Shown: positions 34,947 to 50,927 of the stretch, piece after piece
How the letters are laid out: every line of letters begins with the position of its first letter
Position numbering within the stretch: the stretch's first letter is position 1
DNA from: a virus
DNA: 50,927 nt
Reading direction: 5' to 3' (one strand)
IMG/VR virus record: IMGVR_UViG_3300044632_001258
Span: 1 to 50,927 of that record
Program-made: the position numbers and the translations under genes
Notes under the pieces: model-generated
What the model was told of the DNA's origin: nothing
The model's database searches: none
Seen by the model: only the letters and a program-made list of their open reading frames with translations

Positions 34947-36059
34947 ATGAAAAAAGTTTTAAATGAAATCAAAAAAATTCAATCGTTAATTGGTTTACAA
35001 TCTGATGTTTTGATTAATGAAGATGAAGCTTCTACAGAAACAAGGATGAAAATAATTAAGTCACTCCTTTCTGCAAATAACATATTAAAAAACAAAATAG
35101 AAAAAAGTTTACAAAATATTGTAAATTTATCTAACGAACAGATAATAAATTTTGATTTACTTGAAAGAGGAATTAGAAAGGTTCTGAAGATGAAAGGGGA
35201 TAAAGAAAAAAACATCCAAACTTATTTGGATAAAGTTTTTAATTCCTTAAAAAAAAGAGAACCAAATTCTTACGAAGGAGATATTGAAAATGAAGATTAT
35301 GGTTTTGAAATTGAGGAACCTTCAATCTTATCTAAAAAAATATATAAAAAAGAATTATACTATCTTCAGGTTGAGTTATTAAAATTACAAGAATGGTTAA
35401 ATAAGACAGGTAAGACTGTTATTCTTGTTTTTGAAGGTAGAGATTCTGCAGGTAAGGGTTCCACAATTAAAAAGTTTACTGAAAATTTAAATCCAAGATA
35501 TTTTAATATTATTGCGTTAGGTATACCAACACCCGAAGAAAGGAAAGATTGGTATGGTAGATATTCATCTAAAATCAAAAATGGAATGATTAACTTTTTT
35601 GATAGAAGTTGGTATAATAGAGGATTAATTGAACCTGTTATGGGTTATGGTACCGAAGAAGAGTATAATAATTTTATGGACTCAGTTACTGACTTTGAAA
35701 GTAAATTAGTTGAAAATGGAGATTATTTATTCAAACTATGGTTCTCAATCGATAAAGAAACTCAAAAAAGAAGATTTGATATCCGTCAGAAGTCTCCACT
35801 TAAACAATGGAAATATTCTCCAAATGATTCTAAAATGCAAGATTTATGGGATAGATTTACAGAATTCAAAGAAAGATTATTTGATAAAACATCAACAGTA
35901 AATCATCCTTGGATTGTCCTTGATTCAAATGATAAAAGAATTTCAGGATTAAATGCTATCAGATATATTTTACAAAATATCCCTTATGATAATAAAAATA
36001 CTGAACTTTTGGATAAGGAATTTCCAGAAGCGATGTACATACTAAAACCCGAAGAATAA
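34947..36059 (+). CDS. ppk2: Polyphosphate kinase 2 with tagged N-terminal extension
   Basis: 370 residues. The PPK2 core (about 130-365) has Walker A EGRDSAGKGST (163-173), the lid, and FDRSWYNRGLIEPVMGY (218-234). It would transfer phosphate between polyphosphate and nucleotides. The first 130 residues are an added helical region beginning MKKVLNEIKKIQSLIGLQSD, then VLINEDEAS; this resembles the ENIQRIKEMMGL leader at 44526 and PLINEDS at 43224. I-N-E followed by D is not a perfect protease site. The start is taken from the promoter; a frame start at 34911 would lie upstream of it. The enzyme may be a virion component. Confidence 0.85.
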   Translation: MKKVLNEIKKIQSLIGLQSDVLINEDEASTETRMKIIKSLLSANNILKNKIEKSLQNIVNLSNEQIINFDLLERGIRKVLKMKGDKEKNIQTYLDKVFNSLKKREPNSYEGDIENEDYGFEIEEPSILSKKIYKKELYYLQVELLKLQEWLNKTGKTVILVFEGRDSAGKGSTIKKFTENLNPRYFNIIALGIPTPEERKDWYGRYSSKIKNGMINFFDRSWYNRGLIEPVMGYGTEEEYNNFMDSVTDFESKLVENGDYLFKLWFSIDKETQKRRFDIRQKSPLKQWKYSPNDSKMQDLWDRFTEFKERLFDKTSTVNHPWIVLDSNDKRISGLNAIRYILQNIPYDNKNTELLDKEFPEAMYILKPEE

Positions 36060-36060
36060 T

Positions 36061-36579
36061 ATGAGTCTTAATTTAGAAAATTTAAAAACAGGTGATGTCT
36101 TACATTGTAGAGGTAAAAAATTAATCAGTAAGATGATAAGATGGGCAACAAAGTCACAAATAAATCACACTGCAATGTTTATTTGGATTTGGGATGAGCC
36201 TTATATTATTGACGCTCAAGATAATGGTGTAAACGTTAAGCCATTTAAAAATTGGGTTGAAGAATATCAGTATGAGTTTATTGTACAAAGAAAACCAAAA
36301 CCAATTGCCGAGAAAAAAATTGCAACAAAGGCGATGAGTAAAGTTGGTTTAACTGCTTATGATTTTGAAGGTTTAATTATTAAACAACCAATTGAATTAA
36401 TAACAGGAAAGTGGCGTAAAAAACAATCCAATCACGAAGAAGATAAAATGTATTGTTCAGAATTTGTATCTTGGGTTTACAGATTGGAAGATTCGTATAG
36501 AATGTCGCCTAAAGATTTTTTAGAATATTGTAAAGAAAATAATTGGGAAACAATTTACAATACTGGTGTTGATTTATGA
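36061..36579 (+). CDS. YiiX-like permuted papain-fold amidase/peptidase
   Basis: 172 residues. GDVLHCRGKKLISKMIRWAT followed by NHTAMFI (His36) and, late, MYCSEFVSWVYR (Cys132): this His-before-Cys order is the circularly permuted NlpC/P60 (YiiX/YebB) arrangement. Family members act as amidases or lipid-amide hydrolases; the substrate here is unknown. The gene starts 1 bp after ppk2 and overlaps the next by ATGA, so it belongs to a late-type operon. It may act on host peptidoglycan or lipids at entry or exit. Confidence 0.82.
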   Translation: MSLNLENLKTGDVLHCRGKKLISKMIRWATKSQINHTAMFIWIWDEPYIIDAQDNGVNVKPFKNWVEEYQYEFIVQRKPKPIAEKKIATKAMSKVGLTAYDFEGLIIKQPIELITGKWRKKQSNHEEDKMYCSEFVSWVYRLEDSYRMSPKDFLEYCKENNWETIYNTGVDL

Positions 36580-37562
36580 ATGAGGAAACTAAAAAATTAA
36601 AAAAAATAAATCACGTACTCAAATCTTTAATAAAGGAAGGGAATATTAAAAGTTTGAGATTATTAGATGACGAAGAGTTTTATTCTGTAGTCGCTGAAGT
36701 AACATACCCTTATTCAATTAATCCTGAAATAGTTGAAAACATTATTGAAAATTTTTTAGAAAAAGTTAATAATGAATGGATTAGAATTGATAAAGACATT
36801 AGTTATATTGATTTAATTTTTATTGAAGAAATGGAAAAATTAAATGAATCAGTTAGTACTAAAAGAAAAAAAATAACTGAAAATGAAATTATGAAACTTG
36901 AAAAAATGTTGAATAAGTTCATGCCGAATTATTTTGAGTGGTGGGTTAACTGTAAAATTACTTTTTGTGATTATAGTAAAGTGTTTGATACTATAATTCT
37001 TGAAACTGAATTAAAAGTTTTAGATGAGTGGGCATACGAAAGTTTCAGAGAATATTACAACACAACCAATTTTCCTAATATTCCTGAAGATGAATTAGTT
37101 TTGGAGGAGATAATCGGAAGTAAATTATCAAAAGATATTAACGAAAAAATTAAAGCAATTATTCAATCTGTTTTGGGTGAAATTGTTGAAGTATTAATTT
37201 TTGACGCAGTGATTGTTGAGTTAGTTGAAAGAGATAATGTCCCTGATAAAATACTTGATGAACAGTTAACTAAACCAAACAACAATAGTATTTTAAAAGA
37301 TTATAAAAAAATAATTTTTACAGGTAATACTCACCAAGAACTTGGACTTAGTCGTATAGAAACACCCCAAAGTCTATTAGATAAAATAAATAAAAATTTT
37401 TCAGTTCCTGTTTTTAGAATAAATTCTGCGGGATATGATTTTCCTGTTTATAGATTAGAAGGTAAATTTGAACATAATGGTAAAAAATATACCATTGATT
37501 TAAGACCTGAAAAAGGTCCTAATTTTGCGTTAATTGGTACAATAAAGATTCCAATAAATTAA
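36576..37562 (+). CDS. Multi-unit hypothetical protein with internal tag, 328 aa
   Basis: Overlaps the amidase stop by ATGA. An N-terminal unit (1-85) is followed by KLNESVSTKRKKITENEIMK at about 88-107, where L89-N90-E91 is followed by S92. The next segment (LEKMLNKFMPNYFEWWVNC) resembles the start of the 46857 protein (LNESQLRIFNKVLNKKL..FPWWFEG). A further unit begins near NNSILKDYKKIIFTGN (about 250). It reads like two or three separate small proteins joined in one frame with a processing site in between. Function unknown. Confidence 0.6.
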   Translation: MNEETKKLKKINHVLKSLIKEGNIKSLRLLDDEEFYSVVAEVTYPYSINPEIVENIIENFLEKVNNEWIRIDKDISYIDLIFIEEMEKLNESVSTKRKKITENEIMKLEKMLNKFMPNYFEWWVNCKITFCDYSKVFDTIILETELKVLDEWAYESFREYYNTTNFPNIPEDELVLEEIIGSKLSKDINEKIKAIIQSVLGEIVEVLIFDAVIVELVERDNVPDKILDEQLTKPNNNSILKDYKKIIFTGNTHQELGLSRIETPQSLLDKINKNFSVPVFRINSAGYDFPVYRLEGKFEHNGKKYTIDLRPEKGPNFALIGTIKIPIN

Positions 37563-38236
37563 TATCGTATTCTTTGGCCACTAGGGTCGTAAAACATTAC
37601 ATCTAAATCAAGATACATATATTCTTTATTTGTTAGTAAAGTATTAGTCCAAATATAGTCCATTGCTGAGTCGTATTTGTTATCAAGATAATCAGAGAAT
37701 GATTGTTCATTGAATAAGAAATCTAAAATATCAAATAATCTTTTGTTAGTTTCTGCCGGCTCACCATCATAGTGAGAGTCAATTAGTTGAATTTTAATTT
37801 GTATTCTGTTCCCATCACCTCCAGACGTTACGTCAACAAATTCAGATATTATCTCAGAATCAAAATCACCGTACCAAATGTTGGTAATGTCTGAAACTAA
37901 ACTCATCATTATCCTTGTATCGACTCTATTTAAATACACTTCATCTATACTAACCTCATCAAAGTAGAATTTAAAAAATTGTTTTAAGTAGTAAAAACTT
38001 GAAGGACCTGGTGTAGATTGAGGAGGTATGAATTCAGTAAAAAAAGATATTACATCATTAAAAAATTCAATAACTACATATGGATTGTATGATAAGTTAT
38101 TTGGGTTTGATATGTATACATTAATTAAGTTTTTTGACTCATCATATTCTGATTTATATGTTAACCCACCAATATTAACTTTGTTGTTTTTAATAAGTGT
38201 GTTATAGAGTTTTTGAACTAATTTATTATCCACCAT
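37559..38236 (-). CDS. Hypothetical acidic protein, 225 aa
   Basis: Minus-strand gene, convergent with the previous one (4 bp overlap at the stops), with TATTTAT 6 bp before its ATG. Opens MVDNKLVQKLYNTLIKNNKV; later FFNDVISFFTEFIPPQSTPG and YMYLDLDVMFYDPSGQRIRY. Its leader has no (I/L)xE site. Helical N-terminus with strand-rich middle; no family. Confidence 0.6.
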   Translation of the reverse strand: MVDNKLVQKLYNTLIKNNKVNIGGLTYKSEYDESKNLINVYISNPNNLSYNPYVVIEFFNDVISFFTEFIPPQSTPGPSSFYYLKQFFKFYFDEVSIDEVYLNRVDTRIMMSLVSDITNIWYGDFDSEIISEFVDVTSGGDGNRIQIKIQLIDSHYDGEPAETNKRLFDILDFLFNEQSFSDYLDNKYDSAMDYIWTNTLLTNKEYMYLDLDVMFYDPSGQRIRY

Positions 38237-38242
38237 AATATG

Positions 38243-38249
38243 ATAAATA
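38243..38249 (-). promoter_or_regulatory. TATTTAT-class (probable late) promoter, minus strand
   Basis: TATTTAT read on the minus strand, 6 bp before the start codon at 38236. Confidence 0.5.
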
Positions 38250-38286
38250 TACTTTAAAGTTAATTAATTTATTGTTAATATTGGGT

Positions 38287-39294
38287 ATGATTAATTATGC
38301 GGATGTAATTGTGGACCTTCAGGCGGGGGACACAGGGAAAGGTAAGGTATGTAATACTTTAAGTCAAACCCCAAATGAATATACACATGTTGTAAGATAT
38401 AATGGAGGTGGAAATGCGGGTCACACTATATATAAAAAAGGTAAAAAGATAGTAACTCATTTTATTCCATCAGGAATTGTGAATGGTGTTAAGTCAATTA
38501 TTGGTCCAGGTTGTGTTGTTAACCCAATTAGTTTATTCCACGAGATTCAGCAACTTGAGGCAAGTGGTGTTGAAGTTATGGGTAAGTTATTCATTGATAA
38601 AAGGGCTCATATTATTAGACCTGAACACACAACCGAGGACTCCAAAGACCAAGAGATTGGAACGACTAAAACAGGTAATGGACCTGCATATCGTGATAAA
38701 TATTATCGTAAGGGAGTTAGAGTTGAACACGCGGAATTACTTGAACAATATGTTTGTGATATCTATGAGGAATTCCATGGTAAAGATGAGGTAAAGATTT
38801 TATTTGAAGGGGCTCAAGGATTTGAATTGGATATTGATTGGGGTGACTACCCTTACGTTACATCATCTCATTGTACAGTAGGTAGTGCAGTTCTTAATGG
38901 AGTTCCACCCCAAAGAATTAGAAAGGTTTATGGAGTTTGCAAGGCATATAATACATATGTTGGAGCAAAACAATTTGAAGGACCTACTAAAATATTTGAA
39001 AAAATTAGGGAGGTTGGTAATGAATACGGCTCAACTACAGGAAGACCAAGACAAATTGGTTGGACTAATTTAGATGACTTAATTAAGGCTGCAAATATTA
39101 ATGGAGTTACTAACTTAGTTGTAAATAAGGTTGATGTACTTGAGAAAGTAGGTACCTTTATGTTAATATATAAAAAACAATTAATAAGTTTTGTACATAA
39201 AGAATTTTTTAAAATATTTTTTGAAAACAACATTAAACAGAATTGTCCTTTGGTTAGAGAAATAATCTTTTCTGAAAGTGCTGAAACAATCTAA
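38287..39294 (+). CDS. purA: Adenylosuccinate synthetase, short (archaeal/phage-like) form
   Basis: 335 residues from ATG 38287 (MINYADVIVDLQAGDTGKGK). Matches to PurA: GDTGKGK (14-20, catalytic Asp15 kept), GGGNAGHTIY, HFIPSGIV, GPGCVVNP, IGTTKTGNGPAYRDKYYRKG and TTGRPRQIGWTNLDDL. It joins IMP and aspartate using GTP, first step to AMP. It is about 90 residues shorter than bacterial PurA and in this resembles archaeal PurA and the phage 2-aminoadenylate enzyme PurZ. The retained Asp argues for a PurA activity, but PurZ-type use of dGMP should be tested. TTG starts upstream are not preferred. Confidence 0.88.
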   Translation: MINYADVIVDLQAGDTGKGKVCNTLSQTPNEYTHVVRYNGGGNAGHTIYKKGKKIVTHFIPSGIVNGVKSIIGPGCVVNPISLFHEIQQLEASGVEVMGKLFIDKRAHIIRPEHTTEDSKDQEIGTTKTGNGPAYRDKYYRKGVRVEHAELLEQYVCDIYEEFHGKDEVKILFEGAQGFELDIDWGDYPYVTSSHCTVGSAVLNGVPPQRIRKVYGVCKAYNTYVGAKQFEGPTKIFEKIREVGNEYGSTTGRPRQIGWTNLDDLIKAANINGVTNLVVNKVDVLEKVGTFMLIYKKQLISFVHKEFFKIFFENNIKQNCPLVREIIFSESAETI

Positions 39295-39303
39295 AAAGGT
39301 TAA

Positions 39304-39310
39304 TATTTAT
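39304..39310 (+). promoter_or_regulatory. TATTTAT-class (probable late) promoter
   Basis: TATTTAT 7 bp before ATG 39318. Confidence 0.5.
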
Positions 39311-39317
39311 TTAAGTA

Positions 39318-40481
39318 ATGAAAGATTTAATTAAGAAAGTTTTAACGGAACATTTGTTAACGGAGGGTGACCACCCAATACTTTACGATAAATATGAATT
39401 TGATGGTGCTAGTGTGTCACATTTTAAAACTGGAACCAATGTTTTTTTAGATAACAGTGTGAATATTGTAAATGACACATTCCAAGATACTGAATGTATT
39501 GAAAATACTGATATATGTATTCCATTCACTACTTTAGTACATGGTAGTAACGAATACAGAGTACCTCAATGGGATAAGGACGGAAAACAAATCCTTAAAA
39601 TCTCAATTAACGGTAATTTATATTTGACTTTAAAAGATTTTGAGAAGTACCTAAAAGGATATGATTTAGGTAGTTCTGATATGAATTTAGATGATATTGC
39701 TGCAAGAATAAAAACTGAAAAATTATTTTTATCGACACTTAATGAAATAATGGAAAACATTTATTCAAAATTAAAAAGTGACGATGGTGAGCCATTATTT
39801 GGTGAATCAGTTAAGGATGATAAATGTAAAACTAACCGTGGGGTTATTAATTTCAGAGGAGTTAAGTATGGTGTTGGATATAAGTTAGTTTCAGACTGGT
39901 CAATATTAAATTATTTCAATACAAATTCAGGTGTGATTAAATTCTTATTAAGAGAATATATGAATGTAACTGAAGTTAACCTTTCTGACTTCACTAAAAA
40001 CTTTAAAGATGAACAAACAAAATTTATAAATTGGATTAAAAAAAACCAAGTTTATCTTTTTGGTCCTGAATCTCAGTTTTTGGATAAGATGGAAAGAATA
40101 AATCTAACCTCATTAAATTCAGGTATCCAAAGAGAACAACAAGCGGTAATGATATTAATGAAGTTACATAATCTTGGTGAGGAAGGGATAACAGAGTACT
40201 GTCCTGGGTCAATCGAGGACACAATATATGGTAGAGATGTGAGAATAAACTTAGAGACTCCAATTTATTATCAGATAAAACCACTTAATGGTTTAATTAA
40301 AAAAACTGAAAATGGGTACCTTGTTCCAACTCACAGTATGAAAAGATATCCTAAGACTGTGGATAAATTTATTTTTGTTGGTAAAAATGGTAAGTACATT
40401 ATTTTCCAAAATGAAAATTATGAAGTTTCCAAAAAGGGGGATTTTGTGACTTTTAAAAATGAACCAATAACACAAAACTAA
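39318..40481 (+). CDS. Tagged protein with possible PD-(D/E)xK nuclease domain, 387 aa
   Basis: The leader MKDLIKKVLTEHLLTEGDHP contains LTE twice; L14-T15-E16 followed by G17 is an exact (L/I)xE/G site. The long middle is of unknown type. Near the C-terminus QREQQAVMILMKL (271-283), EDTIYGRDVRI with D307 and PIYYQIKPLNG with Q319-x-K321 follow the order Glu-Asp-(Gln)xLys of restriction-type nucleases. This is recognition by eye and moderate at best. If correct it would be an injected nuclease for host DNA or competing elements. It is convergent with the next minus-strand gene. Confidence 0.55.
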   Translation: MKDLIKKVLTEHLLTEGDHPILYDKYEFDGASVSHFKTGTNVFLDNSVNIVNDTFQDTECIENTDICIPFTTLVHGSNEYRVPQWDKDGKQILKISINGNLYLTLKDFEKYLKGYDLGSSDMNLDDIAARIKTEKLFLSTLNEIMENIYSKLKSDDGEPLFGESVKDDKCKTNRGVINFRGVKYGVGYKLVSDWSILNYFNTNSGVIKFLLREYMNVTEVNLSDFTKNFKDEQTKFINWIKKNQVYLFGPESQFLDKMERINLTSLNSGIQREQQAVMILMKLHNLGEEGITEYCPGSIEDTIYGRDVRINLETPIYYQIKPLNGLIKKTENGYLVPTHSMKRYPKTVDKFIFVGKNGKYIIFQNENYEVSKKGDFVTFKNEPITQN

Positions 40482-41179
40482 ATTGGGAATACATTAACGT
40501 CTATAAATTGCCAATTTGTGTCAATAAATGTTTTAGTATCTACAATAGGACTTAAACAATCCCAGATTGGGTCCTCAAACAAAATTCTGTCTTCATTTTT
40601 GATATCAAATATGAATTCTTCAAAGTCTTTGGGGTCCATCATATAATATTTACCAGTAATTAAGTTGTCGACAAATACTGAGTTTGTTTTGAATCCGACA
40701 TCAATTACAAATCTTTCACCATCTGATTCAATATAATATTCCAAATCTGAACAGTCGTAATGACCTTCTATTGTATAAATTATATTTTTATTATTTCTAT
40801 ATTTTATTGTTGCTTTTTTATTATGAATACATTCTTTCATTTTTTTTGAGTGACCGACATCTAAATAAAAATCTGTCATACCATCATTAATTACATCAAA
40901 TACTATTAATTTATTTAAAATTGTATAATTACTTAAATTAGTTCCGGCTAAAGATTGTATATTAGATATAAAATCATCTTGAAAACTGGCATATAGATTT
41001 GCAAGTGTATACGGTAAGTCATTTGGATTATATATTTCGATTAAAGGTACCTCATAATCAAAATTGTCTATACTTACCGTTACTTTTTCTTTAGAATTAA
41101 TTAATTCTATTCCATAAAAATCCCAAGACTTAAAAAAAGTATCAAATACTTTTATAAATCTATTAATTTCTTTAATCAT
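40478..41179 (-). CDS. Hypothetical protein, 233 aa
   Basis: Minus-strand gene starting MIKEINRFIKVFDTFFKSWD, whose ATG shares a base with the stop of the tagged gene at 41179-41478, so the two form an operon. It is rich in Asp, Ile, Tyr and Asn with many short strands (YNPNDLPYTLANLYASFQDD) and ends WQFIDVNVFPI. No family. Comparable in size and composition to the protein at 37559 but not clearly homologous. Confidence 0.6.
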   Translation of the reverse strand: MIKEINRFIKVFDTFFKSWDFYGIELINSKEKVTVSIDNFDYEVPLIEIYNPNDLPYTLANLYASFQDDFISNIQSLAGTNLSNYTILNKLIVFDVINDGMTDFYLDVGHSKKMKECIHNKKATIKYRNNKNIIYTIEGHYDCSDLEYYIESDGERFVIDVGFKTNSVFVDNLITGKYYMMDPKDFEEFIFDIKNEDRILFEDPIWDCLSPIVDTKTFIDTNWQFIDVNVFPI

Positions 41180-41478
41180 TAAAATTCTGGACTCATTATA
41201 CGTTTTAGCTCATCTAAGTTTTTAGGGTATATAACGTTAGTGACTAAACCTTTAGAATCTTTGGTATATGTTTTAATTCTATCGGAAATTTCAACATATT
41301 GTGCGGAACCATCAGGATTTTTAAATTCAAATTTATTTGAATTTATTTTTGTGATACCTTTACCTTTTTGTGACGAAAGAAAATTTACAATATCTTTATA
41401 ATCACTAACTAATTGTTCATTGACTACTTTTTTAACTATTCTTTGTAAATCTGATTCTGTTAACTTTATAATTTTCAT
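41179..41478 (-). CDS. LTESDL-tagged small protein, 99 aa
   Basis: Leader MKIIKLTESDLQRIVKKVV closely matches the 5210 protein; L6-T7-E8 is followed by S9, an exact site. The body is basic (SSQKGKGITKINSNKFEFK) and beta-rich, about 90 residues after cleavage. Driven by TATTTAT 13 bp upstream. Function unknown; probable packaged protein. Confidence 0.62.
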   Translation of the reverse strand: MKIIKLTESDLQRIVKKVVNEQLVSDYKDIVNFLSSQKGKGITKINSNKFEFKNPDGSAQYVEISDRIKTYTKDSKGLVTNVIYPKNLDELKRIMSPEF

Positions 41479-42360: not shown

Positions 42361-42822
42361 ATGGGGATAGAAAAAATAATCAAACAAGTTTTGAAAGAGG
42401 AATTTACTAGTCAAATGTGTCAATCTCCTGAAGTTAATAAAAAATTCAAGGAGTTCAAAATCTATCGTCTTGGGTACTGTAGAAAGTTGGTTTTTGATGG
42501 CGAATTAAAGAAAATAAAAGATATACAAAAAGAGACTGGTAATATCATACAGAAAGGACCTTATAAAGGTGGGAATAAATCTGAGGTATTGAAAAAATTA
42601 AATGATAACTATAACCAAAGATTGAATGAAAAATGTGGAGGGGTAATTTTTATGGGTAAAGAACCGGATTTAGATAGAACTCCAGGAGTAGACCCTTGCA
42701 AGATTCCATCAGTTATAAATGATTACAAAAACCCAAATGTTCGTAGGTCTTACAATAAATACATGGGATACCCTGAAAATGAAGACATATTCAGTGGAGG
42801 ACCAATCTCACCAATGATATGA
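42361..42822 (+). CDS. Tagged Cys-containing protein, 153 aa
   Basis: Leader MGIEKIIKQVLKEEF is an amphipathic helix with L-K-E followed by E, so similar to but not an exact protease site. The body holds scattered Cys (QMCQS, GYCRK, EKCGG, DPCKI) and a basic middle, with a Pro/Tyr/Asn-rich end (NPNVRRSYNKYMGYP). Its stop overlaps the MKYVITES gene by ATGA, exactly as in the 1653/2756 pair. Function unknown. Confidence 0.6.
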   Translation: MGIEKIIKQVLKEEFTSQMCQSPEVNKKFKEFKIYRLGYCRKLVFDGELKKIKDIQKETGNIIQKGPYKGGNKSEVLKKLNDNYNQRLNEKCGGVIFMGKEPDLDRTPGVDPCKIPSVINDYKNPNVRRSYNKYMGYPENEDIFSGGPISPMI

Positions 42823-43202
42823 AATACGTAATCACAGAATCCCAACATGGGAGGTTAAAGAACTATATGATATCATATTTTGATATACTGTTCCAGCCTG
42901 ATTCAATTCATTATACTCATCCGTATGTTTACGATTATGAAGGGAATGAAACTGAAGACCGAAACGTGTTTGAATTTTATTATGGTAACTATATGGATGA
43001 GGATTTTGTCTTCACTTGGTATGGTAGTGATTACTATGATGAGGATGAGGATTATGACTTAAAAGTAATATCACCAATAGTACAAGTTGCAATTGATAGG
43101 TCATATGAACTTGATGGTATTTTTGGAGAAGATAAATGGGAAGAGACATTTAAAGAATGGTTCAAAGAAACTTTCGGGATGGATGTTAAAACCGTAAAGT
43201 GA
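42819..43202 (+). CDS. MKYxITES-tagged acidic protein, 127 aa
   Basis: Starts MKYVITESQHGRLKNYMIS; I5-T6-E7 followed by S8 is an exact site. The middle is extremely acidic and Tyr-rich (GSDYYDEDEDYD). The C-terminal third (LDGIFGEDKWEETFKEWF) matches the 2756 protein, so they are paralogues. Function unknown; probably paired with the product of the preceding gene. Confidence 0.62.
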   Translation: MKYVITESQHGRLKNYMISYFDILFQPDSIHYTHPYVYDYEGNETEDRNVFEFYYGNYMDEDFVFTWYGSDYYDEDEDYDLKVISPIVQVAIDRSYELDGIFGEDKWEETFKEWFKETFGMDVKTVK

Positions 43203-43223: not shown

Positions 43224-43694
43224 ATGGAATATTTAAAAAAGTTTTATGATTTATTAGGGACTGAAATGGGTAATGTTAGACCATTAATTAATGAAGACTC
43301 ATTACCTATTGAACCTAAACTTGATGTTGAACCATCAAAATATGTGACACCAAACAGAGGACATATTATGACTAAATTTGGTATAATAACAGTAAATAAT
43401 GATTTAAATTTAACAGTTAATGGTAAAGTTTTAAGTCTTGGTATAAGAAGAAAGTCTGGTGTGAATCCATTTGGTGGTATTGGAATTGATGAATTAAATG
43501 TGATGAGCGCTAAAGAAAATGGTAACAATATTACTTTAACATTAAAATTAAAATCTTCAACAGAACGAAAACAGACTAACTTTACATTAGACTTACCTGA
43601 AGACAAAATCAAAAACGTATCAGTAGATGGTAAAAATATTACAGTTACTAGTGGTGATGAAACGTTTTACGTAAGTCTAATCAGAAACAAATAA
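43224..43694 (+). CDS. Tagged-type beta-rich protein, 156 aa
   Basis: Leader MEYLKKFYDLLGTEMGNVRP then LINEDSLPIE, similar to VLINEDEAS in the PPK2 extension; I-N-E is followed by D. The rest is strand-rich with Asn/Gly turns (KFGIITVNNDLNLTVNGKVL, LTLKLKSSTERKQTNFTL), like a beta-sandwich. Convergent with the small gene at 43701. Function unknown. Confidence 0.58.
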   Translation: MEYLKKFYDLLGTEMGNVRPLINEDSLPIEPKLDVEPSKYVTPNRGHIMTKFGIITVNNDLNLTVNGKVLSLGIRRKSGVNPFGGIGIDELNVMSAKENGNNITLTLKLKSSTERKQTNFTLDLPEDKIKNVSVDGKNITVTSGDETFYVSLIRNK

Positions 43695-43976: not shown

Positions 43977-44408
43977 ATGAAAGAATTAATCAGGAAAGTT
44001 TTGACCGAATCACGAGAGGTGAAAACTAATGACTTTACAGGACTTGAAAAAGTTATTGTAAAAGATGCTGAAAAACTCATTAAAGATTATCCTTATTTAG
44101 ATTCGGTTTACGGAGTTAATTCTATTGAAGAAGTTGGTGATAACTTAGAAGGTAGAGTTATTGTTAAGTTAAAACCTGGACTAAGTAAGTATTTCAGGAA
44201 AAGTAATAGTGATTATGACGAAGTTAATAATTTTTATATATATTATGGCATACAAGTTCATAATACAATACCAAAGGATTTATCAGACTCTGCTGACATT
44301 TATACATTTGAAGCAAGGTTAGAGGATTCACTTAATCCCAAACTTGGGTTAAATACTAAAAATGGAAAATTCAACGTGTATTTCATTTTACTACCTATAC
44401 GAGAATAA
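43977..44408 (+). CDS. LIRKVLTES-tagged protein, 143 aa
   Basis: Leader MKELIRKVLTESREVKTND; L9-T10-E11 followed by S12 is an exact (L/I)xE/S site, giving a mature protein of about 132 residues. The body alternates strands and helices (DNLEGRVIVKLKPGLSKYF, YYGIQVHNTIPKDLSD). No family recognised. Monocistronic, followed by a terminator. Confidence 0.62.
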   Translation: MKELIRKVLTESREVKTNDFTGLEKVIVKDAEKLIKDYPYLDSVYGVNSIEEVGDNLEGRVIVKLKPGLSKYFRKSNSDYDEVNNFYIYYGIQVHNTIPKDLSDSADIYTFEARLEDSLNPKLGLNTKNGKFNVYFILLPIRE

Positions 44409-44520: not shown

Positions 44521-44525
44521 TTAGT

Positions 44526-45668
44526 ATGAACTTACAGGAAAACATACAAAGAATTAAAGAAATGATGGGATTAACCGAAGTAGTTAATATTTCCGATGAC
44601 TCATACCTGTCAATGAATATTAAAAACTTCCCAAAGTATAAAAAGGAAGTTGTTGAATTACTTAAAGATAAATTAAATAATTCAGATAAAGATTTTATTA
44701 CGTTTAAAAATTCTGTAATAGTTGGATATGATGATAATAAAATACCAATCTTATCAGATGATTTAAAAGTTGATAATAGATTTTTAAATTATATGGTGTC
44801 AATGGGAAGTAAAAAATTCAACTCATTGTTACATAGTATTTTTTCTGATTATTTTGGTATTGAACAACAAACTAATAATACTCAATCGGCGGTTGCCAAT
44901 TGTGACCCATCAAATTTTACAATAGTTGGGCCTTTAGTTGCTAAAGACGATAAAATGCTTATGAGTTATTGGATTAGTCAAAAAGGTGGTAAAGTATATA
45001 AAATTAGATTCCCTAAAGAATGTGAATCTGAATTATCTTTAGGTGATAGAGGAACATATGTTACAGTTGAGCCAGTTCAAAATAGAACACATTTCCCAAA
45101 AGGAATTCCTGAAAGTTTAAGAGGGAAAAAACTTGGAACACTTATATATCTTGCAATGATAAAAAAATTGGGTTATGTTACAAGTAGTATGGGTAATAGT
45201 GCTGAAATAAGAATGGTGTGGCAAGACATATTAACGAACCCGAAATATGAAAATGATGTGATGTCACTTATCTTACAAAAACAAATTCTTGTGTTTGACA
45301 AAAATACTAATGAAGATGTTAAAAGTATCTTCAATGAGTTTGTGTCAGATAAATTCACAGACAAGAAATCAGTTAGAATTTCACCAGCACTTAAAGAAAT
45401 ATTGGGAGAAGATTTCACCAATTGGTATAATAGTTTAGAACAAAATCCTGAAGATTCTATTGAGGATAACATAAAAAAATACGAAGGAGAAATTCCGAAA
45501 GGAGGGGATACCGTCGTAGATACAACCACAAATAAAATATATTCTTTTAATGGGGAATGGGAAGACAAGGGTAAACAATTAATCCAATTATCAAGTGATA
45601 AATTTGAATCATTGTTGTTACCTGCTGAAGAAAAGAAAAGATTTAAAGTAATACATAGAAGTACATAA
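44526..45668 (+). CDS. ENIQRIKEMMGL-tagged protein, GNAT-like segment, 380 aa
   Basis: Leader MNLQENIQRIKEMMGLTEVV, a third tag style; L16-T17-E18 is followed by V, not an ideal site. In the middle, HFPKGIPESLRGKKLGTLIY and LAMIKKLGYVTSSMGN resemble the acetyl-CoA-binding R-G-x-x-L-G and following strand-helix of GNAT acetyltransferases; this is weak evidence. The C-terminal part has EIPKGGDTVVDTTTNKIYSF, a short beta domain. It could be a packaged host-modifying enzyme. Confidence 0.55.
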   Translation: MNLQENIQRIKEMMGLTEVVNISDDSYLSMNIKNFPKYKKEVVELLKDKLNNSDKDFITFKNSVIVGYDDNKIPILSDDLKVDNRFLNYMVSMGSKKFNSLLHSIFSDYFGIEQQTNNTQSAVANCDPSNFTIVGPLVAKDDKMLMSYWISQKGGKVYKIRFPKECESELSLGDRGTYVTVEPVQNRTHFPKGIPESLRGKKLGTLIYLAMIKKLGYVTSSMGNSAEIRMVWQDILTNPKYENDVMSLILQKQILVFDKNTNEDVKSIFNEFVSDKFTDKKSVRISPALKEILGEDFTNWYNSLEQNPEDSIEDNIKKYEGEIPKGGDTVVDTTTNKIYSFNGEWEDKGKQLIQLSSDKFESLLLPAEEKKRFKVIHRST

Positions 45669-45680
45669 TATGAACCTACA
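45665..45680 (+). repeat. Leader-start repeat, copy 1
   Basis: ATAATATGAACCTACA occurs here and again at 48774-48789, each time just after a stop codon. It encodes the beginning MNLQ of the 44526-type leader. Confidence 0.6.
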
Positions 45681-45732
45681 GGAACAAATATCAAGAATAC
45701 AATCAATTAATAATGTATTTATCATAATATGA
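45670..45732 (+). pseudogene. Orphan ENIQRI-type leader (20 codons)
   Basis: ATG 45670 to TGA 45730-45732 reads MNLQEQISRIQSINNVFII. The first ten residues match the leader of 44526 (MNLQENIQRI), but no body follows; instead the TATTTAT promoter and start of the next gene lie inside its end. It looks like a leader left behind after loss or replacement of its gene. It might also be a translated leader peptide. Confidence 0.5.
45716..45722 (+). promoter_or_regulatory. TATTTAT-class (probable late) promoter
   Basis: TATTTAT 6 bp before ATG 45729, inside the orphan leader. Confidence 0.45.
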
Positions 45733-46058
45733 TACTAACTTCTGAAAGAGCTGAAAAATTATTTAATTCGGATTATATTAAAAAAATATATCCGATGATT
45801 GATAAGATTGATGCTGAAGTTGTATGGGATGGGGACGAAGATTTTCCTTTTTATAAAATTTATTTAACAGTAAAGTTAAACGACCCAACAATAACAAGTA
45901 AAAATATGTACGATAAGGGATTTGACCCACATTATTTGTATCAGGAGCATTTAAAGTACCTACTACAATTTTTAAGTATTAACTCAAATACCTCAACGAT
46001 AGAACAAGTGTATATTAAAACATTAGGACCTGATGGGGAGGAAATAAATTATTACTAA
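45729..46058 (+). CDS. Hypothetical protein, 109 aa
   Basis: MILTSERAEKLFNSDYIKKI is a helical opening like MKYxITES tags but without the Glu site. The body has VVWDGDEDFPFYKIYLTVKL and a helix DPHYLYQEHLKYLLQFL, giving the same strand-then-helix pattern as the MKY-tagged proteins at 2756 and 42819. Its stop is 1 bp before the next ATG, so it starts a four-gene operon to 48.8 kb. Confidence 0.58.
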   Translation: MILTSERAEKLFNSDYIKKIYPMIDKIDAEVVWDGDEDFPFYKIYLTVKLNDPTITSKNMYDKGFDPHYLYQEHLKYLLQFLSINSNTSTIEQVYIKTLGPDGEEINYY

Positions 46059-46059
46059 T

Positions 46060-46845
46060 ATGAGATTAAAAGAAGAAATATCGGATAATAATTTAAGTGG
46101 TAGATTAAAATTAGAAAAAATAATTGCATCATTTGTTAAAGGAACATTTGACAAAAATATCTTGACTAATAATTTCCATGATGTTGAGGTTAATATTTTT
46201 AATACTGATTATGGAACACAATGTCATGTTACCGTTTTAATGAAAAATTCTTTTTCAGGTGAAGAGTCAGATAGATTTCATAATAGTTTGAGGAATGTTA
46301 GGTCAGTCATTCGTGATGTTTTTCCTGAGTTTAACGCAGGGATAAGTTTTAACACTGAAACACTTGAGTCCTATAACAAAGGTAAATGGTGGTATGAGGA
46401 AAAAAAGAAACCAATCAAAGAGAGTGAGAATAAGATATTAAATCTTATTGAAAGACAAGGACTATTTAATTTTCTTAATATATCTGAATTAAATCCATAC
46501 CAACTGGGTAAGACGTTTGATTTAGACGCTCTACCGAAAGGTGTTAAATACCAATTCTTGGACGATACTTCGGAACATTTAGTTAGTCAATGGATAAGTG
46601 ATTATGTTAGTGGTGATAAACTATCATCTTTAATGTATCAAACTAAAACTATTAGTGGTAAAAGAAATTATGAAATACAGTATTTCGGTGGGGGAGGTGT
46701 GACAGGGGAAAGATTTGATAATGAAGGACAGTATCGTGGACTTATAAATTTGGCCTACTCACAATTACCTGAACACATATTTAATAATTTATATGAAATT
46801 GTATTGTACGAAGTGTATTATAATGGTATATACAAACAAAATTGA
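46060..46845 (+). CDS. Two-unit hypothetical protein with internal tag, 261 aa
   Basis: The first unit (1-115, starting MRLKEEISDNNLSGRLKLEK) ends in a Trp/Lys region, then KKPIKESENKILNLIERQGL at 116-135 holds I119-K120-E121 followed by S122, an exact site. The second unit opens KILNLIERQGLFNFLNISEL, similar to KILKLIDELGLWNAKEALGI at the start of the 47905 protein. So it looks like two packaged-type proteins fused in one frame. No domain recognised. Confidence 0.58.
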   Translation: MRLKEEISDNNLSGRLKLEKIIASFVKGTFDKNILTNNFHDVEVNIFNTDYGTQCHVTVLMKNSFSGEESDRFHNSLRNVRSVIRDVFPEFNAGISFNTETLESYNKGKWWYEEKKKPIKESENKILNLIERQGLFNFLNISELNPYQLGKTFDLDALPKGVKYQFLDDTSEHLVSQWISDYVSGDKLSSLMYQTKTISGKRNYEIQYFGGGGVTGERFDNEGQYRGLINLAYSQLPEHIFNNLYEIVLYEVYYNGIYKQN

Positions 46846-46856
46846 AGAATGATACA

Positions 46857-47912
46857 ATGAAAGAGCCTGCAGAATTAAATGAATCACAATTGAGAATATT
46901 CAATAAAGTATTGAATAAAAAGCTATCTCAAAATTTTCCTTGGTGGTTTGAAGGTATTGAACTATCTCGTGCGGGAATGAATGATGGTCAAAACTACTTG
47001 TATATGGATGGTGACATTTATGTTGATGCTGATTGGGTAGGCGCACAATGGAGAAAATATAATGATTATAGACCAGTACCTGAATTTGGGACTGATTATG
47101 ATGAATACACTTTTGGAGATTTGGTCGGAATAAACGACGGTTGGCTTGATACACTTAAAGAAATATTCCTATCAGTATTCTATTCAATACACGGAGTTAA
47201 ATACCCAAGATATTTATCATTTAGTTGGCTTATGGTTAAACCTGTTGAAACTAAAGAACAGATGAAAGAAAACAATTTTTTAAAAGAACATATTAGAAAA
47301 ATAATACAAGAAGAAGTTAGTAGAAAATTCTTGAAACCAAATGAGAAAACTGAAAAACTTATATTAGATAAATTGAATAAGATTTTTTCAGATATGAATA
47401 TGTATCACACTGAAAGTTATAAAACAAGACACGATATTGAGTTTTGTAAAAATGGTAAAAAAATGATGAATTTAGCATTGTTTTTTGAAGAAACTGATGA
47501 CCGCAGACCAACATCTGAAAGAAAATTCATGGAGTCATCTTTATTTATACCCAAAGAGTTTGTTAACGATATATTAAACTATATACCTATTAGAAAAAAT
47601 TATCTTATTTACTTAATTGAAGAATGGTTTGAAGATAATTTTCTTGATGATGTGATAAATGAAATGGGTAGGGATGATATATCTATTGATGAATTATCAT
47701 TTATGGACAGAGTTGATGTATGTGTTCCACCAATCACTGAGATACCTGAAGGAGTTACTCAAGATGAGATGATTGAGGTTATTATGAAAAATACACTATG
47801 GCGTAAAAAAGATTTATTGGCGTTAGAAGAAAGAGAATCTGGGTCTATAGAACGGATGTATTTACAAAAACTTCATAGTAATGAAATAAACAGATTAAGT
47901 AATAATGGCTAA
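46857..47912 (+). CDS. Two-unit tagged protein, 351 aa
   Basis: Start at ATG 46857 (MKEPAELNESQLRIFNKVLN); a TTG at 46842 would add five residues. L7-N8-E9 followed by S10 is an exact site. The first unit (1-125) has NFPWWFEGIEL and YTFGDLVGINDGWLDTLKEI. A second leader-like helix, FLKEHIRKIIQEEVSRKFLK (141-160), precedes the second unit. The first unit resembles the middle of the 36576 protein. Overlaps the next gene by 8 bp. Confidence 0.58.
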   Translation: MKEPAELNESQLRIFNKVLNKKLSQNFPWWFEGIELSRAGMNDGQNYLYMDGDIYVDADWVGAQWRKYNDYRPVPEFGTDYDEYTFGDLVGINDGWLDTLKEIFLSVFYSIHGVKYPRYLSFSWLMVKPVETKEQMKENNFLKEHIRKIIQEEVSRKFLKPNEKTEKLILDKLNKIFSDMNMYHTESYKTRHDIEFCKNGKKMMNLALFFEETDDRRPTSERKFMESSLFIPKEFVNDILNYIPIRKNYLIYLIEEWFEDNFLDDVINEMGRDDISIDELSFMDRVDVCVPPITEIPEGVTQDEMIEVIMKNTLWRKKDLLALEERESGSIERMYLQKLHSNEINRLSNNG

Positions 47913-48777
47913 AGGAAAAGATAAAATATTAAAGTTAATTGACGAGTTAGGTCTTTGGAATGCTAAAGAAGCTTTGGGTATTTCATTAACCAAAATTGTT
48001 AAATTAGTTGGGTTAAAGATTCATCCAGGTTTGGCTAGTGAAATAATAATTGAAGGTATTAATAATGAAACCCTACCAACAGAATATAAAGAATTTAAGA
48101 TTTCAACAAATTCTGATGGCGTTGTTTATTGGGAAGGTAAATTTTATGGGGACCACTTCTTAGCTGATATGGTTGAAACAATATGGATAATGGCAACACC
48201 ATTTTGGGATGGTGAAAGTTACACTCCAGTCGAAACTGATTGGTATTCGTTGGTTGATGGGTCTAAAAATACACTTATTGCTGAAATTGAAGGAGGTGGT
48301 GATTACTTTGAAACAATTAGTGATAAGGTTTTTTTTGATAGTGTGGAAGAGTTACATAATTGGTATAATGAGTATTATTTACCACGTGTGTATAAAATAA
48401 TTATGAATAACTTCTTACTTAGTCTACGACAAGATATGGATGATAGGTTAGATGACAATATGGGTTATAGTCCTATAAGAGAAAGTATTGTTAGAGTATT
48501 AAGAGAAGAAAGTGAAGGTGATGGTAATGTAGAAAAATTTATAAAAAAGGCCACAAAGATAATTAATACAATTAAAATTCCTGCGGTGAAACGTGTTGGG
48601 TTTGATTATGATGAAATGATGGATGGATATCACGTTAATATATTTTTTGATAGACAATTTGCAATAGATAATCCCAAAAATTTCAATAAAGTAAAACAAA
48701 AAGCAGTCCAAGAAATTGGTTCAACCGTTACAAGTTATTTCCCGTTTAAATTTTTATTTTATTTACATTACGAATAA
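47905..48777 (+). CDS. Two-unit hypothetical protein with internal tag, 290 aa
   Basis: Opens MAKGKDKILKLIDELGLWNA, matching the second unit of the 46060 protein. At 189-203 SPIRESIVRVLREES contains I191-R192-E193 followed by S194, an exact site in a basic amphipathic helix. The last unit (about 205-290) has IINTIKIPAVKRVGFDYDEM and GYHVNIFFDRQF, a strand pattern similar to the first unit of 46060 (HDVEVNIFNTDYGTQCHVTV). Unknown function. It ends at the second copy of the MNLQ leader repeat. Confidence 0.58.
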   Translation: MAKGKDKILKLIDELGLWNAKEALGISLTKIVKLVGLKIHPGLASEIIIEGINNETLPTEYKEFKISTNSDGVVYWEGKFYGDHFLADMVETIWIMATPFWDGESYTPVETDWYSLVDGSKNTLIAEIEGGGDYFETISDKVFFDSVEELHNWYNEYYLPRVYKIIMNNFLLSLRQDMDDRLDDNMGYSPIRESIVRVLREESEGDGNVEKFIKKATKIINTIKIPAVKRVGFDYDEMMDGYHVNIFFDRQFAIDNPKNFNKVKQKAVQEIGSTVTSYFPFKFLFYLHYE

Positions 48778-48789
48778 TATGAACCTACA
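48774..48789 (+). repeat. Leader-start repeat, copy 2, at a strand switch
   Basis: ATAATATGAACCTACA again follows a stop codon directly. The coding similarity to MNLQ leaders stops after the fourth codon, and 9 bp further on lies the stop of the first gene of the inverted MKY array. This looks like a recombination junction. Confidence 0.55.
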
Positions 48790-48797
48790 AATTTTAT

Positions 48798-49133
48798 TTA
48801 ATTGTAATCATCAGAATCGTAATCACAATCAGAATAGAATCGGCCCAATGACTCAAACCCGTATCTATATTTAAACCATTCACCAACCAAGAGTAACGCA
48901 TCATCTAATGATATTGGAAAGAAGTCGGAAATTCTTGTAATTAAATCACAACTTACAAATGCGTCATCATAATTAACATGTGTGGATATTAATGGATATT
49001 GGCTTTCTCGCCAAGACGATTCAGATTCCCAAAGGTATAAGTCACCCCTATCTTCAACTGAAAAGAAGTTTTGGGTATCCAAATACTTAAAGATTAAGTT
49101 ATTTAAATGTGATTCTTTTATAAGGTATTTCAT
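48798..49133 (-). CDS. MKYxIxES-tagged protein, array member 1, 111 aa
   Basis: MKYLIKESHLNNLIFKYLD has I5-K6-E7 followed by S8. The sequence then follows the array pattern KYLDxxxF, a strand region, ITRISDFFPISLDDALLLVGEW, and an acidic tail (DCDYDSDDYN). It is homologous by eye to the 49173, 49912 and 50644 proteins. Function unknown; probable packaged protein. It is the last gene of the minus-strand operon. Confidence 0.62.
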   Translation of the reverse strand: MKYLIKESHLNNLIFKYLDTQNFFSVEDRGDLYLWESESSWRESQYPLISTHVNYDDAFVSCDLITRISDFFPISLDDALLLVGEWFKYRYGFESLGRFYSDCDYDSDDYN

Positions 49134-49172
49134 TGTTCGGTATGTATTATCTTATTTGGTTCTCAACCTTTC

Positions 49173-49520
49173 TTATATTTCCCATTTAGATGGTATTCTC
49201 AACGACCATTCTGAATTCATTATATGATATAACATTTCCCCTTCCAAATTTAGTTTATTTTTAACCCATTCTCCAATAGCTCTGGCTGATTTATATGTGG
49301 AAAGAGAAAAGAAAGAGGAAACCTCATCAACCAAATTTTTATATATAAAATACAACTCTTCATTATGATGACGACCACCATATTTAATTTGAGCAAACCC
49401 GTCATCATCAGGGTGTTTAAAGTATGTACTGGCACCAATTTTAGATATTTCAAAATCTTGATTATCCAAGTATTTGAATATTGCTTTATCTCGTTGTGAT
49501 TCGGTGATTAGGTATTTCAT
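49173..49520 (-). CDS. MKYxITES-tagged protein, array member 2, 115 aa
   Basis: MKYLITESQRDKAIFKYLDN: I5-T6-E7 followed by S8, exact site. Then KYLDNQDFEISKIG, FAQIKYGG, LVDEVSSFFSLSTYKSARAI and GEWVKNKLNL. It is closest to the partial protein at 50644 (LDNQDF..YAQIRY..GEVSSFFSM..REAIGRWVGETL). Start overlaps the 49517 gene stop by ATGA. Confidence 0.65.
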   Translation of the reverse strand: MKYLITESQRDKAIFKYLDNQDFEISKIGASTYFKHPDDDGFAQIKYGGRHHNEELYFIYKNLVDEVSSFFSLSTYKSARAIGEWVKNKLNLEGEMLYHIMNSEWSLRIPSKWEI

Positions 49521-49888
49521 GAGAATGTTACACTTTTAACTGATTTAACTTCGTAGTCGGGGAAGTATTCATTAAATACATCTGACAGAATGAAATCGCT
49601 GTGAACCCACCAAATTGGATGGGGAAAGGCCTCACCATATATATTATCAAGTTGTCTACTATAATATAATTCACCACTTTGTTTTATATACATCATCATT
49701 AGTTTTCCTTCAGAGTCGAATAAACCAATTCTAAATTCACTTTCATCATATGAATCAACCAAATTTACAAAATAAGGAACAAACTTATGTTTAAGTTTCT
49801 CATATTTTTCAGCGTACTCAATATTTCTCCAAGTTCTTTCAAGCTCGGTAATTAACTTATATTGTGATTCTGTTATAATGTATTTCAT
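49517..49888 (-). CDS. MKYxITES-tagged protein of a different body type, 123 aa
   Basis: MKYIITESQYKLITELERTW carries the exact I-T-E/S site, but the body (YEKLKHKFVPYFVNLVDSYD, then HPIWWVHSDFILSDVFNEYF) is not that of its neighbours; its last third resembles the IFG..W..F pattern of the 2756/42819 proteins. Same leader with a different body is direct evidence of modularity. TATTTAT lies 6 bp upstream. Confidence 0.62.
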   Translation of the reverse strand: MKYIITESQYKLITELERTWRNIEYAEKYEKLKHKFVPYFVNLVDSYDESEFRIGLFDSEGKLMMMYIKQSGELYYSRQLDNIYGEAFPHPIWWVHSDFILSDVFNEYFPDYEVKSVKSVTFS

Positions 49889-49894
49889 GTAGTG

Positions 49895-49901
49895 ATAAAT
49901 A
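49895..49901 (-). promoter_or_regulatory. TATTTAT-class (probable late) promoter, minus strand
   Basis: TATTTAT on the minus strand, 6 bp before the start at 49888. Confidence 0.5.
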
Positions 49902-49911
49902 TCTTATTATT

Positions 49912-50277
49912 TTACTTAACTATTAATCTGTAAGACATGTCACCATTTCCAGTATCATTAACATCATCATAATTAATTTTAAGATTTAGTTTATCACCGA
50001 CCCAATCCGCAATAACTTTTAATAATTTAGATTTAGGTATAGGTAAAAATAAAGTTACCAACTCAATTAATTCACGACTAACATATAACCAATCTCTAAC
50101 TTCACCAAAGGCATTTAAGTGATAGACACTTATTTGTGCGGTGTCATCTGATTCACTATTTAAAAAATAAATGTAATTGTTAAATTTTTTACCATTATCC
50201 ATTATAATAAAATCATGACTGTCCAAATATTTTCGTACAACATTTTCTAATTTAGATTCTGTGATAATGTATTTCAT
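49912..50277 (-). CDS. MKYxITES-tagged protein, array member 3, 121 aa
   Basis: MKYIITESKLENVVRKYLDS: exact I-T-E/S site. Then HDFIIMDNG, TAQISVYHL, ELIELVTLFLPIPKSKLLKV and ADWVGDKLNL, the same body plan as members 1, 2 and 4. Start overlaps the upstream stop by ATGA. Function unknown. Confidence 0.65.
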   Translation of the reverse strand: MKYIITESKLENVVRKYLDSHDFIIMDNGKKFNNYIYFLNSESDDTAQISVYHLNAFGEVRDWLYVSRELIELVTLFLPIPKSKLLKVIADWVGDKLNLKINYDDVNDTGNGDMSYRLIVK

Positions 50278-50630
50278 ATGTATAAATCAAGAAATTGTTC
50301 CATAGTTATTCCAAGAGCGTAGATACCAAGTAAATTCATAAAGTCGGACTCTTCATACCCATCACCTTTATTATCAAGAATCAATGGGAGGTTTGAACTA
50401 TAATTCATTTGATATAATACCTTACGATTATTATCCAATTCTATAAGATACATCGGACCATAGTTATCACCTAATTGTCTTCTTCGTAAACCATCGTAAG
50501 TAAAATAGAAATCAAAATCATTCAGTATTTTATATACGCTCGGGTCAAGCTCCACACGACCTGTGAGGTCAATATTAAACTTGTTTTTAATAAATGTTTT
50601 TAATTTAGATTCAGTGATTAATAGTTTCAT
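50274..50630 (-). CDS. MKLLITES-tagged protein, 118 aa
   Basis: Start chosen at ATG 50630 (MKLLITESKLKTFIKNKFNI), 6 bp after TATTTAT; a longer frame to 50705 has no leader. I5-T6-E7 followed by S8 is an exact site. The body (DPSVYKILNDFDFYFTYDGL, GPMYLIELDNNRKVLYQMNY) is unlike the other array members and ends with a helix FMNLLGIYALGITMEQFLDL. Function unknown. Confidence 0.62.
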   Translation of the reverse strand: MKLLITESKLKTFIKNKFNIDLTGRVELDPSVYKILNDFDFYFTYDGLRRRQLGDNYGPMYLIELDNNRKVLYQMNYSSNLPLILDNKGDGYEESDFMNLLGIYALGITMEQFLDLYI

Positions 50631-50636
50631 GTTATT

Positions 50637-50643
50637 ATAAATA
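50637..50643 (-). promoter_or_regulatory. TATTTAT-class (probable late) promoter, minus strand
   Basis: TATTTAT on the minus strand, 6 bp before ATG 50630 and 1 bp after the stop of the partial upstream gene. Confidence 0.5.
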
Positions 50644-50927
50644 TTAATTAGACGGAATCTGCATCCACTCAGATTTAATATTATTGGCCCACAAACAATA
50701 ATCAATATCTACCTTTAAGGTCTCCCCAACCCATCTACCGATAGCTTCCCTAGCATCATAACCTTGCATAGAAAAGAAAGAAGATACCTCACCAATTAAT
50801 CCTGTATATATGACACATTTTCTATCCTTTTTAAAATATCTAATCTGAGCATATTCATCACCTTCTGAATTTACAAAGTATACACCATCAACCTTCTCAA
50901 TCTGAATAAAGTCCTGATTGTCAAGGT
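50644..50927 (-). CDS. Array member 4, C-terminal part of a tagged protein (runs off the 3' edge)
   Basis: Open from the window end to TAA at 50644-50646, about 94 residues. It begins in LDNQDFIQIEKVDGVYFVN and continues with YAQIRYFKKDRK, GEVSSFFSMQGYDAREAIGR and WVGETLKV. This matches the 49173 protein over its whole visible length, so a leader MKYxITES..KYLDNQDF should lie just outside the window. Confidence 0.65.
   Translation of the reverse strand, partial: LDNQDFIQIEKVDGVYFVNSEGDEYAQIRYFKKDRKCVIYTGLIGEVSSFFSMQGYDAREAIGRWVGETLKVDIDYCLWANNIKSEWMQIPSN

Follow-up and report, generated by a model that had tools for sequence, protein, structure and literature searches.

Shared leader peptides on many unrelated proteins of a phage fragment and its large relatives, predicted to act as T4-like capsid-targeting propeptides

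The IMG/VR virus record IMGVR_UViG_3300044632_001258, a fragment and sole contig of 50,927 bases (called the window below, meaning this whole stretch), encodes a set of unrelated proteins that begin with short, similar leader peptides. With all open reading frames translated, hand curation of the window finds 18 tagged proteins, whose leaders contain an [ILVM]-x-E sequence, plus three internal tags. We read these leaders as putative propeptides for capsid targeting like those of phage T4, on independent lines of evidence that are computational throughout. The tagged genes and tags of the window are as follows (a slash marks the predicted cut; letters A to D denote leader classes).

1653..2759, plus strand: tagged protein of 368 residues, metalloprotease-like (HEVFH), leader MISQTRIRQIIKE/A, GTG start.
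2756..3169, plus strand: tagged protein, class B leader MKYVVTE/S.
5210..5587, plus strand: tagged protein, class A two-site leader MKKIVRLTE/SDLVKIVKRVLQE/Q; TATTTAT upstream.
14713..15294, minus strand: tagged protein, looser class D leader MELLIREILRE/F, assigned by eye; TATTTAT upstream.
34947..36059, plus strand: tagged polyphosphate kinase (PPK2), two-site leader of class C, MKKVLNE/IKKIQSLIGLQSDVLINE/D; the PPK2 domain spans residues 128-351; TATTTAT upstream.
39318..40481, plus strand: tagged protein, class D leader MKDLIKKVLTEHLLTE/G, with other leaders on the orthologous bodies of relatives G013 and G017; TATTTAT upstream.
41179..41478, minus strand: tagged protein, class A two-site leader MKIIKLTE/SDLQRIVKKVVNE/Q; TATTTAT upstream.
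42361..42822, plus strand: tagged protein, class D leader MGIEKIIKQVLKE/E; TATTTAT upstream.
42819..43202, plus strand: tagged protein, class B leader MKYVITE/S.
43224..43694, plus strand: probable tagged protein, assigned by eye, leader end PLINE/D (compare LINE/S of the capsid protein); TATTTAT upstream.
43977..44408, plus strand: tagged protein, class D leader MKELIRKVLTE/S; TATTTAT upstream.
44526..45668, plus strand: tagged protein, class C leader MNLQE/NIQRIKEMMGLTE/V, with class D leaders on distant homologues; TATTTAT just upstream of the start.
46060..46845, plus strand: protein of two domains, the second of which serves in relative G003 as the body of a separately tagged protein (291201); internal IKE/S near residue 121.
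46857..47912, plus strand: fusion of two tagged proteins, start MKEPAELNE/S, internal class D tag at residues 136-153.
47262..47315, plus strand: internal tag MKENNFLKEHIRKIIQE/E; the matching half in L226 is a separate protein with a class D leader at its start.
47905..48777, plus strand: two-domain protein with an internal tag; L230 has the second half alone, with an MKIIITES leader.
48469..48519 (approximate), plus strand: internal tag SPIRESIVRVLREESEG.
48798..49133, minus strand: tagged MKY-family protein, MKYLIKE/S.
49173..49520, minus strand: tagged MKY-family protein, MKYLITE/S; predicted structure with the first helix from residue 7.
49517..49888, minus strand: tagged protein, MKYIITE/SQYKLITE/L, body unrelated to that of 49173; TATTTAT upstream.
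49912..50277, minus strand: tagged MKY-family protein, MKYIITE/S.
50274..50630, minus strand: tagged protein, MKLLITE/S, ATG at 50630.

The initial annotation of this DNA had described about twenty short-tagged proteins at positions 34947-50927. Leaders shared by unrelated proteins can be read at every coordinate that it quoted. The range was too narrow, since tagged genes also lie at 1653, 2756, 5210 and 14713, and the number falls short for the whole phage, relatives of which have 33-45 per genome. Among the leaders given as MKYxITES, those at 42819, 49173, 49517 and 49912 conform, while 2756 has VTE, 48798 has IKE and 50274 begins MKLLITES. Direct reading yields RLTESDL at 5210, KLTESDL at 41179, LIKKVLTE at 39318 and LIRKVLTE at 43977, and the looser forms at 1653, 14713 and 42361 are likewise present. 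A style thought to be shared by 34947 and 44526 is real for 44526 (ENIQRIKEMMGL), but 34947 (NEIKKIQSLIGL) is only a loose form of it.

Twelve of the 88 called window proteins have the strict motif [IL]xE[SAG] at residues 1-20, compared with an average of 2.05, and never more than 9, for shuffled N-termini (2000 trials). At least a dozen such proteins had been claimed; two of the 12 (27140 and 32046) have unconvincing leaders, and the true leaders of 1653 and 50274 are missed because their start codons were called differently. A test that uses no motif compared every protein with every other over residues 2-26, with related-body pairs excluded and internal segments as the control. The window gives 7 pairs scoring at least 40 versus 0 for internal segments, and the large relatives give 89 (G001, 321 kb), 67 (G003, 294 kb), 102 (G013, 322 kb) and 36 (G017, 295 kb), with 0-2 in the controls; a few pairs are ordinary signal peptides, which cluster on their own. 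Applied to phage T4, the same test returns one N-terminal pair at this score (controls 0-1), IPII/IPIII, which share MKTYQEFIAEA. Thus, the method recovers the known system and shows the present one to be far larger.

Hidden Markov models (HMMs) of five leader classes, used on proteins of at least 95 residues at a threshold passed by at most 2 of 4152 decoys, count 45 tagged genes in G001, 42 in G003, 37 in G013, 33 in G017 and 14 in the window. Altogether, 221 tagged proteins make up 165 body families, of which 127 are seen in a single genome only. Relatives were also recruited with the tagged PPK2 gene (65, of which ten large records were tested for head genes) and from viral contigs with a degenerate class A leader DNA pattern used alone. 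The latter occurs in at least 119 stretches of viral contigs versus 3 in prokaryote genome contigs (257 Gb). On these counts, the tag is phage-specific. Two of the 3 prokaryote matches are the phage-like contigs L400 and L401 of one bin, a metagenome-assembled genome named Alphaproteobacteria UBA3650, with the leader form LTESDLHRIVKES (leaders MKKxxxLTESDLHRIVKESxxxV); the bin also holds a gp23-like fragment. Judged by these sequences, the tag is found in another phage group as well. Among deposited phages, searches with the window DNA and one tagged protein gave nothing useful, class A and class C consensus peptides matched none, and only the class of the cultured relative Flavobacterium phage immuto (host Flavobacterium sp. 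LMO8) did so, in immuto's own records. A literature search found no description of these leaders.

The leaders are built around conserved glutamates. In the PPK2 family, all 37 distinct orthologues have a first site, [ILV]xE, close to residue 4-7 (in two of them, close to 7-9), and 36 of the 37 have a second one, [ILVM]xE, at residues 15-25. The middle residue is free, and insertions occur in the loop that precedes the second site. For class A, 194 genes were picked by LTE and the residues directly after it, leaving the second site unused in selection; 187 of them have that site, and in 162 of these 187 the second Glu stands exactly 13 residues past the first. The P2 residue is again free, and LTE is encoded in 26 ways among the 194 genes, so conservation acts on protein, not RNA. 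A third case is a portal-adjacent protein of the head cluster, in which leaders of ~5 to 45 residues nevertheless end at a junction [ILVF]xE/(Q/A) in 22 of 23 distinct N-termini. Similarly, the metalloprotease-like 1653 family keeps [IL](K/R/N)E/A-x-GVP behind leaders of differing length. Conserved sites amid changing surroundings indicate that the typical tag consists of a site, a helix of ~13 residues and another site. The L/I-x-E cleavage consensus is thus found in the leaders by the PPK2, junction and class A tests, and the S/A-x-E motif of the phiKZ type is not, P3 being I, L, V or M in the PPK2 orthologues and class A genes.

The leaders are modular, as the initial annotation had proposed from the unrelated bodies of 49517 and 49173. 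One body bears a class A leader in G013 (80572) and a class B leader in G017 (188042), class letters being assigned by eye. Orthologous bodies at window 39318 (class D), G013 118104 (class B) and G017 178526 carry different leaders, and an endolysin is tagged in G013 but untagged in G001, G017, immuto and the window. Tags also occur inside proteins: the second halves of window 46857-47912 and 47905-48777, which follow internal tags, are separate leader-bearing proteins in L226 and L230, and for the second half of 46060 the match is a G003 protein with a tag of its own. At the C-terminus, a similarity search gives little above background, and a pattern search gives 2-4 tags per large genome versus about 0-0.5 expected; by these sequence counts, C-terminal tags are probably real but few.

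What follows the leader is diverse. Pfam matches among 115 tagged bodies are mainly to cell-wall enzymes (PG_binding_1 four times, M23 twice, VanY, YkuD, glucosaminidase and GH19), with C39 peptidase and PPK2 in addition, and the domains start behind the leader (PPK2 at residue 128, YkuD at 68, C39 at 29, glucosaminidase at 33, PG_binding at 21). Most of the window cargo has no Pfam or PHROG match. Models of defence systems match tagged bodies weakly at best, and one tagged protein resembles phiKZ internal head proteins, though weakly and below the cutoff (E 0.0013). Untagged in the window, and recognised by eye, are DnaK, thymidylate synthase, glutamine synthetase, PurA and sugar-nucleotide enzymes. 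In a predicted MKY-family structure (mean predicted local distance difference test score, pLDDT, 84), residues 1-6 lie outside the fold and the first helix begins at residue 7; as modelled, the tail of the tag lies outside the fold, but the helix runs on into it. This model has no fold match in the PDB, although unnamed phage proteins do match. The PPK2 model shows the leader as a helix of its own, connected through a low-confidence loop in which the second site lies; as the model itself is of low confidence (mean pLDDT 67), it is used for the layout of leader and linker only. The MKY family also forms tandem arrays of up to seven genes in L189, L162 and L156, in which the leader is the most conserved part.

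Head genes of the T4 type accompany the leaders. A gp21-like prohead protease, the search for which was set in advance, is absent from the window, but an S77 prohead protease is encoded by nine of the ten large PPK2-recruited relatives (E 1e-22 to 1e-26) and a gp23-type capsid protein by six of the ten. Of the records of at least 70 kb recruited by the leader pattern, the same 15 of 25 carry both; all four that exceed 290 kb have S77 and gp23, and the remainder are fragments no longer than 130 kb. The immuto genome encodes the S77 protease too. Neither of the two refuting conditions of the initial annotation that were examined, absence of a prohead protease and leaders belonging to folded domains, came out against its proposal. 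In G003, the head cluster runs portal, core protein, protease, scaffold, capsid protein. T4 gp23 is cut at an established site, LTE65/A. In the alignment, this column holds LINE/A or LINE/S in four capsid proteins of the clade and VSE/A in immuto. The pattern matches both the leader ends and the L/I-x-E rule reported for T4 gp21 (PMC9026906).

The C-terminal 16 residues of the presumed immuto scaffold, VSEQVSRWQKLAGIIK, find as the best of 46,453 segments compared the leaders LSEQFRRMQKLAGIIT (score 48) and LSEQFKRMQFLAGIIT (41), the next scoring 26. As a property of all these phages, copying of the scaffold tail by tags was considered and rejected, the case being convincing for immuto and weak for the window's clade. 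Since the match is strong only in immuto, mimicry is a lead to how cargo might enter the core and no general result. Tag-like sequences also occur at the start, middle and end of a large family of unknown proteins of 396-595 residues (G001 285490, G017 245877, G013 306427 and G003 195629), which is possibly a core protein.

Tagged genes also share an upstream sequence. TATTTAT stands mainly 11-13 or 20-24 bases 5' of start codons and precedes 32 of 45 tagged genes versus 59 of 269 others in G001 (p=2e-10), with corresponding figures of 24/42 versus 50/263 in G003, 27/37 versus 58/250 in G013 and 8/14 versus 8/54 in the window. The untagged genes that have it include those for portal, core, protease and scaffold, long structural-looking genes and an endolysin. 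We read TATTTAT, from its placement, as the putative late promoter of the clade; if that holds, the messages would be nearly leaderless. Some TATTTAT genes have leader-like starts that the HMMs miss, so the true number of tagged genes, as estimated by eye, may be nearer 60 per genome.

Known systems offer partial parallels. Like that of T4 IPI-III and Alt, the present system has an N-terminal leader, the L/I-x-E rule, an S77 protease, a gp23-type capsid protein and cargo unrelated to the leader (PMC9026906); the few proteins with a C-terminal tag recall the C-terminal propeptide of Alt (PMC9026906). Unlike T4, which has three internal proteins and Alt (PMC9026906), these phages have 33-45 or more tagged genes per genome, as well as several leader classes, two-site tags, internal tags and leader swaps between orthologues. 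In phiKZ, 201phi2-1 and SPN3US, many head proteins are cut after Glu by proteases of the gp175/gp245 type, with redundant-site N-terminal propeptides and ejected proteins (PMC9026906, PMC10052503). The phiKZ motif differs, however, being S/A-x-E (PMC9026906, PMC10052503), and processed proteins number 19 in 201phi2-1 and 9 in SPN3US; the available text of these papers describes no shared, interchangeable tag on unrelated bodies (PMC9026906, PMC10052503). The N-terminal 30 residues of P1 DarB carry a foreign protein into the head, and the Dar cargo counters restriction; unlike the present leaders, which share a consensus, the Dar N-termini were found to have none (PMC9024508). Finally, bS21-encoding phages of freshwater Bacteroidetes have the same head-gene cluster, genomes up to 331 kb and the same predicted hosts; the available text makes no mention of leaders or packaged cargo (PMC9723584). 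The window's relatives very probably belong to the same clade. In the G003 head cluster, a small open reading frame, its identity judged by eye, lies at 66230-66415 on the minus strand, the described position of bS21 (PMC9723584).

There is good support for a system that functions like T4 capsid targeting, and all the defining features on which a decision was possible are present; new relative to T4 are its scale and the modular, repeated use of the tag. Read from sequence, then, the leaders are very likely T4-like capsid-targeting propeptides, with cleavage and packaging as predictions. A short amphipathic tag, often between two [I/L/V/M]-x-E sites, would be made late on many unrelated proteins and would bind the prohead core, so that the protein is carried into the prohead. 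The gp21-type (S77) protease would then cut after Glu, and the mature protein would be left within. Cell-wall hydrolases, peptidases, PPK2, ParB-like proteins and many unknown ones make up this cargo, which would probably be ejected with the DNA. We infer core binding, actual cleavage and packaging from the lines given above; injection and the function of the cargo, to which the same verb applies, are the weakest part of the explanation. Of the earlier proposal that these proteins are packaged and injected, packaging is supported by the co-occurrence of protease and gp23 and by leaders lying outside domains, and injection is plausible only. We consider delivery of the cargo into the host reasonably probable. 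The fullest version of the reading, in which T4-type jumbo phages of Bacteroidota possess a general delivery system with an exchangeable, scaffold-mimicking two-site tag at the start, inside or end of 40-60 fast-turnover proteins per genome, packed and injected as an effector set, is one that we favour by a slight degree.

Several observations weigh against this interpretation. The window fragment itself encodes no S77 prohead protease, and in its clade the scaffold tail resembles class C tags so weakly that 0.4-3.5% of random blocks equal the score. Delivery to the cytoplasm is not what one would expect for hydrolases of the cell wall. Some MKY-family members have one site only, with the leader running directly into the first helix. 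In addition, the presence of a site in 214 of the 221 HMM-tagged proteins is not an independent figure, because the HMM counts partly select for Glu.

The alternative that survives best, though it is unlikely, accepts that tagged proteins enter the prohead and are cut but has them serve as core or assembly helpers, or remain in the head, with no delivery to the host. Some tagged or junction-site proteins are conserved neighbours of the portal and capsid genes, and precisely what T4 IPIII does, in head assembly and/or host takeover, is itself unsolved (PMC9026906). However, 127 of the 165 body families occur in one genome only, unlike assembly parts, the recognised bodies are enzymes, and T4 IPI acts in the host (PMC9026906). 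Much less probable is that the leader directs proteins made late to the envelope or a membrane of the cell, where they would serve in lysis or remodelling, the capsid being uninvolved. The abundance of PG_binding, M23, VanY, YkuD, glucosaminidase and GH19 cargo would suit this, as would TATTTAT at an endolysin gene, but PPK2 and ParB-like bodies are cytoplasmic types, and no tag is present on the ordinary endolysins of G001, G017, immuto and the window. Moreover, the tag ends at a protease-like site matching the maturation site of the capsid protein, and two immuto leaders copy the scaffold tail.

We give very little credence to the idea, raised in part in the initial annotation, that the leaders are pieces of folded domains or mark one family related by descent: the 23 aligned members of the MKY family are related throughout, and their helix starts at residue 7, inside the tag, but tags sit on 165 separate body families, known domains begin past the leader, and orthologous bodies bear differing leaders. 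Least credible of all is an RNA-level or translation signal of late genes in the conserved 5' coding sequence, to which TATTTAT just upstream of many tagged-gene starts might point, but LTE is encoded in 26 ways in the 194 class A genes with its amino acids fixed, and internal and C-terminal tags occur.

If capsid targeting by these leaders is correct, hundreds of unknown jumbo-phage genes become predicted virion cargo, readable from sequence alone, and the tags would supply a rule by which proteins of choice could be loaded into Bacteroidota phage heads. T4 IPI and the P1 Dar proteins act against restriction, and for this reason the tags would also point to early host-takeover and counter-defence proteins.

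Elsewhere in the window, two histidine-kinase-like proteins and a response-regulator-like protein are encoded consecutively at 17373-21363.

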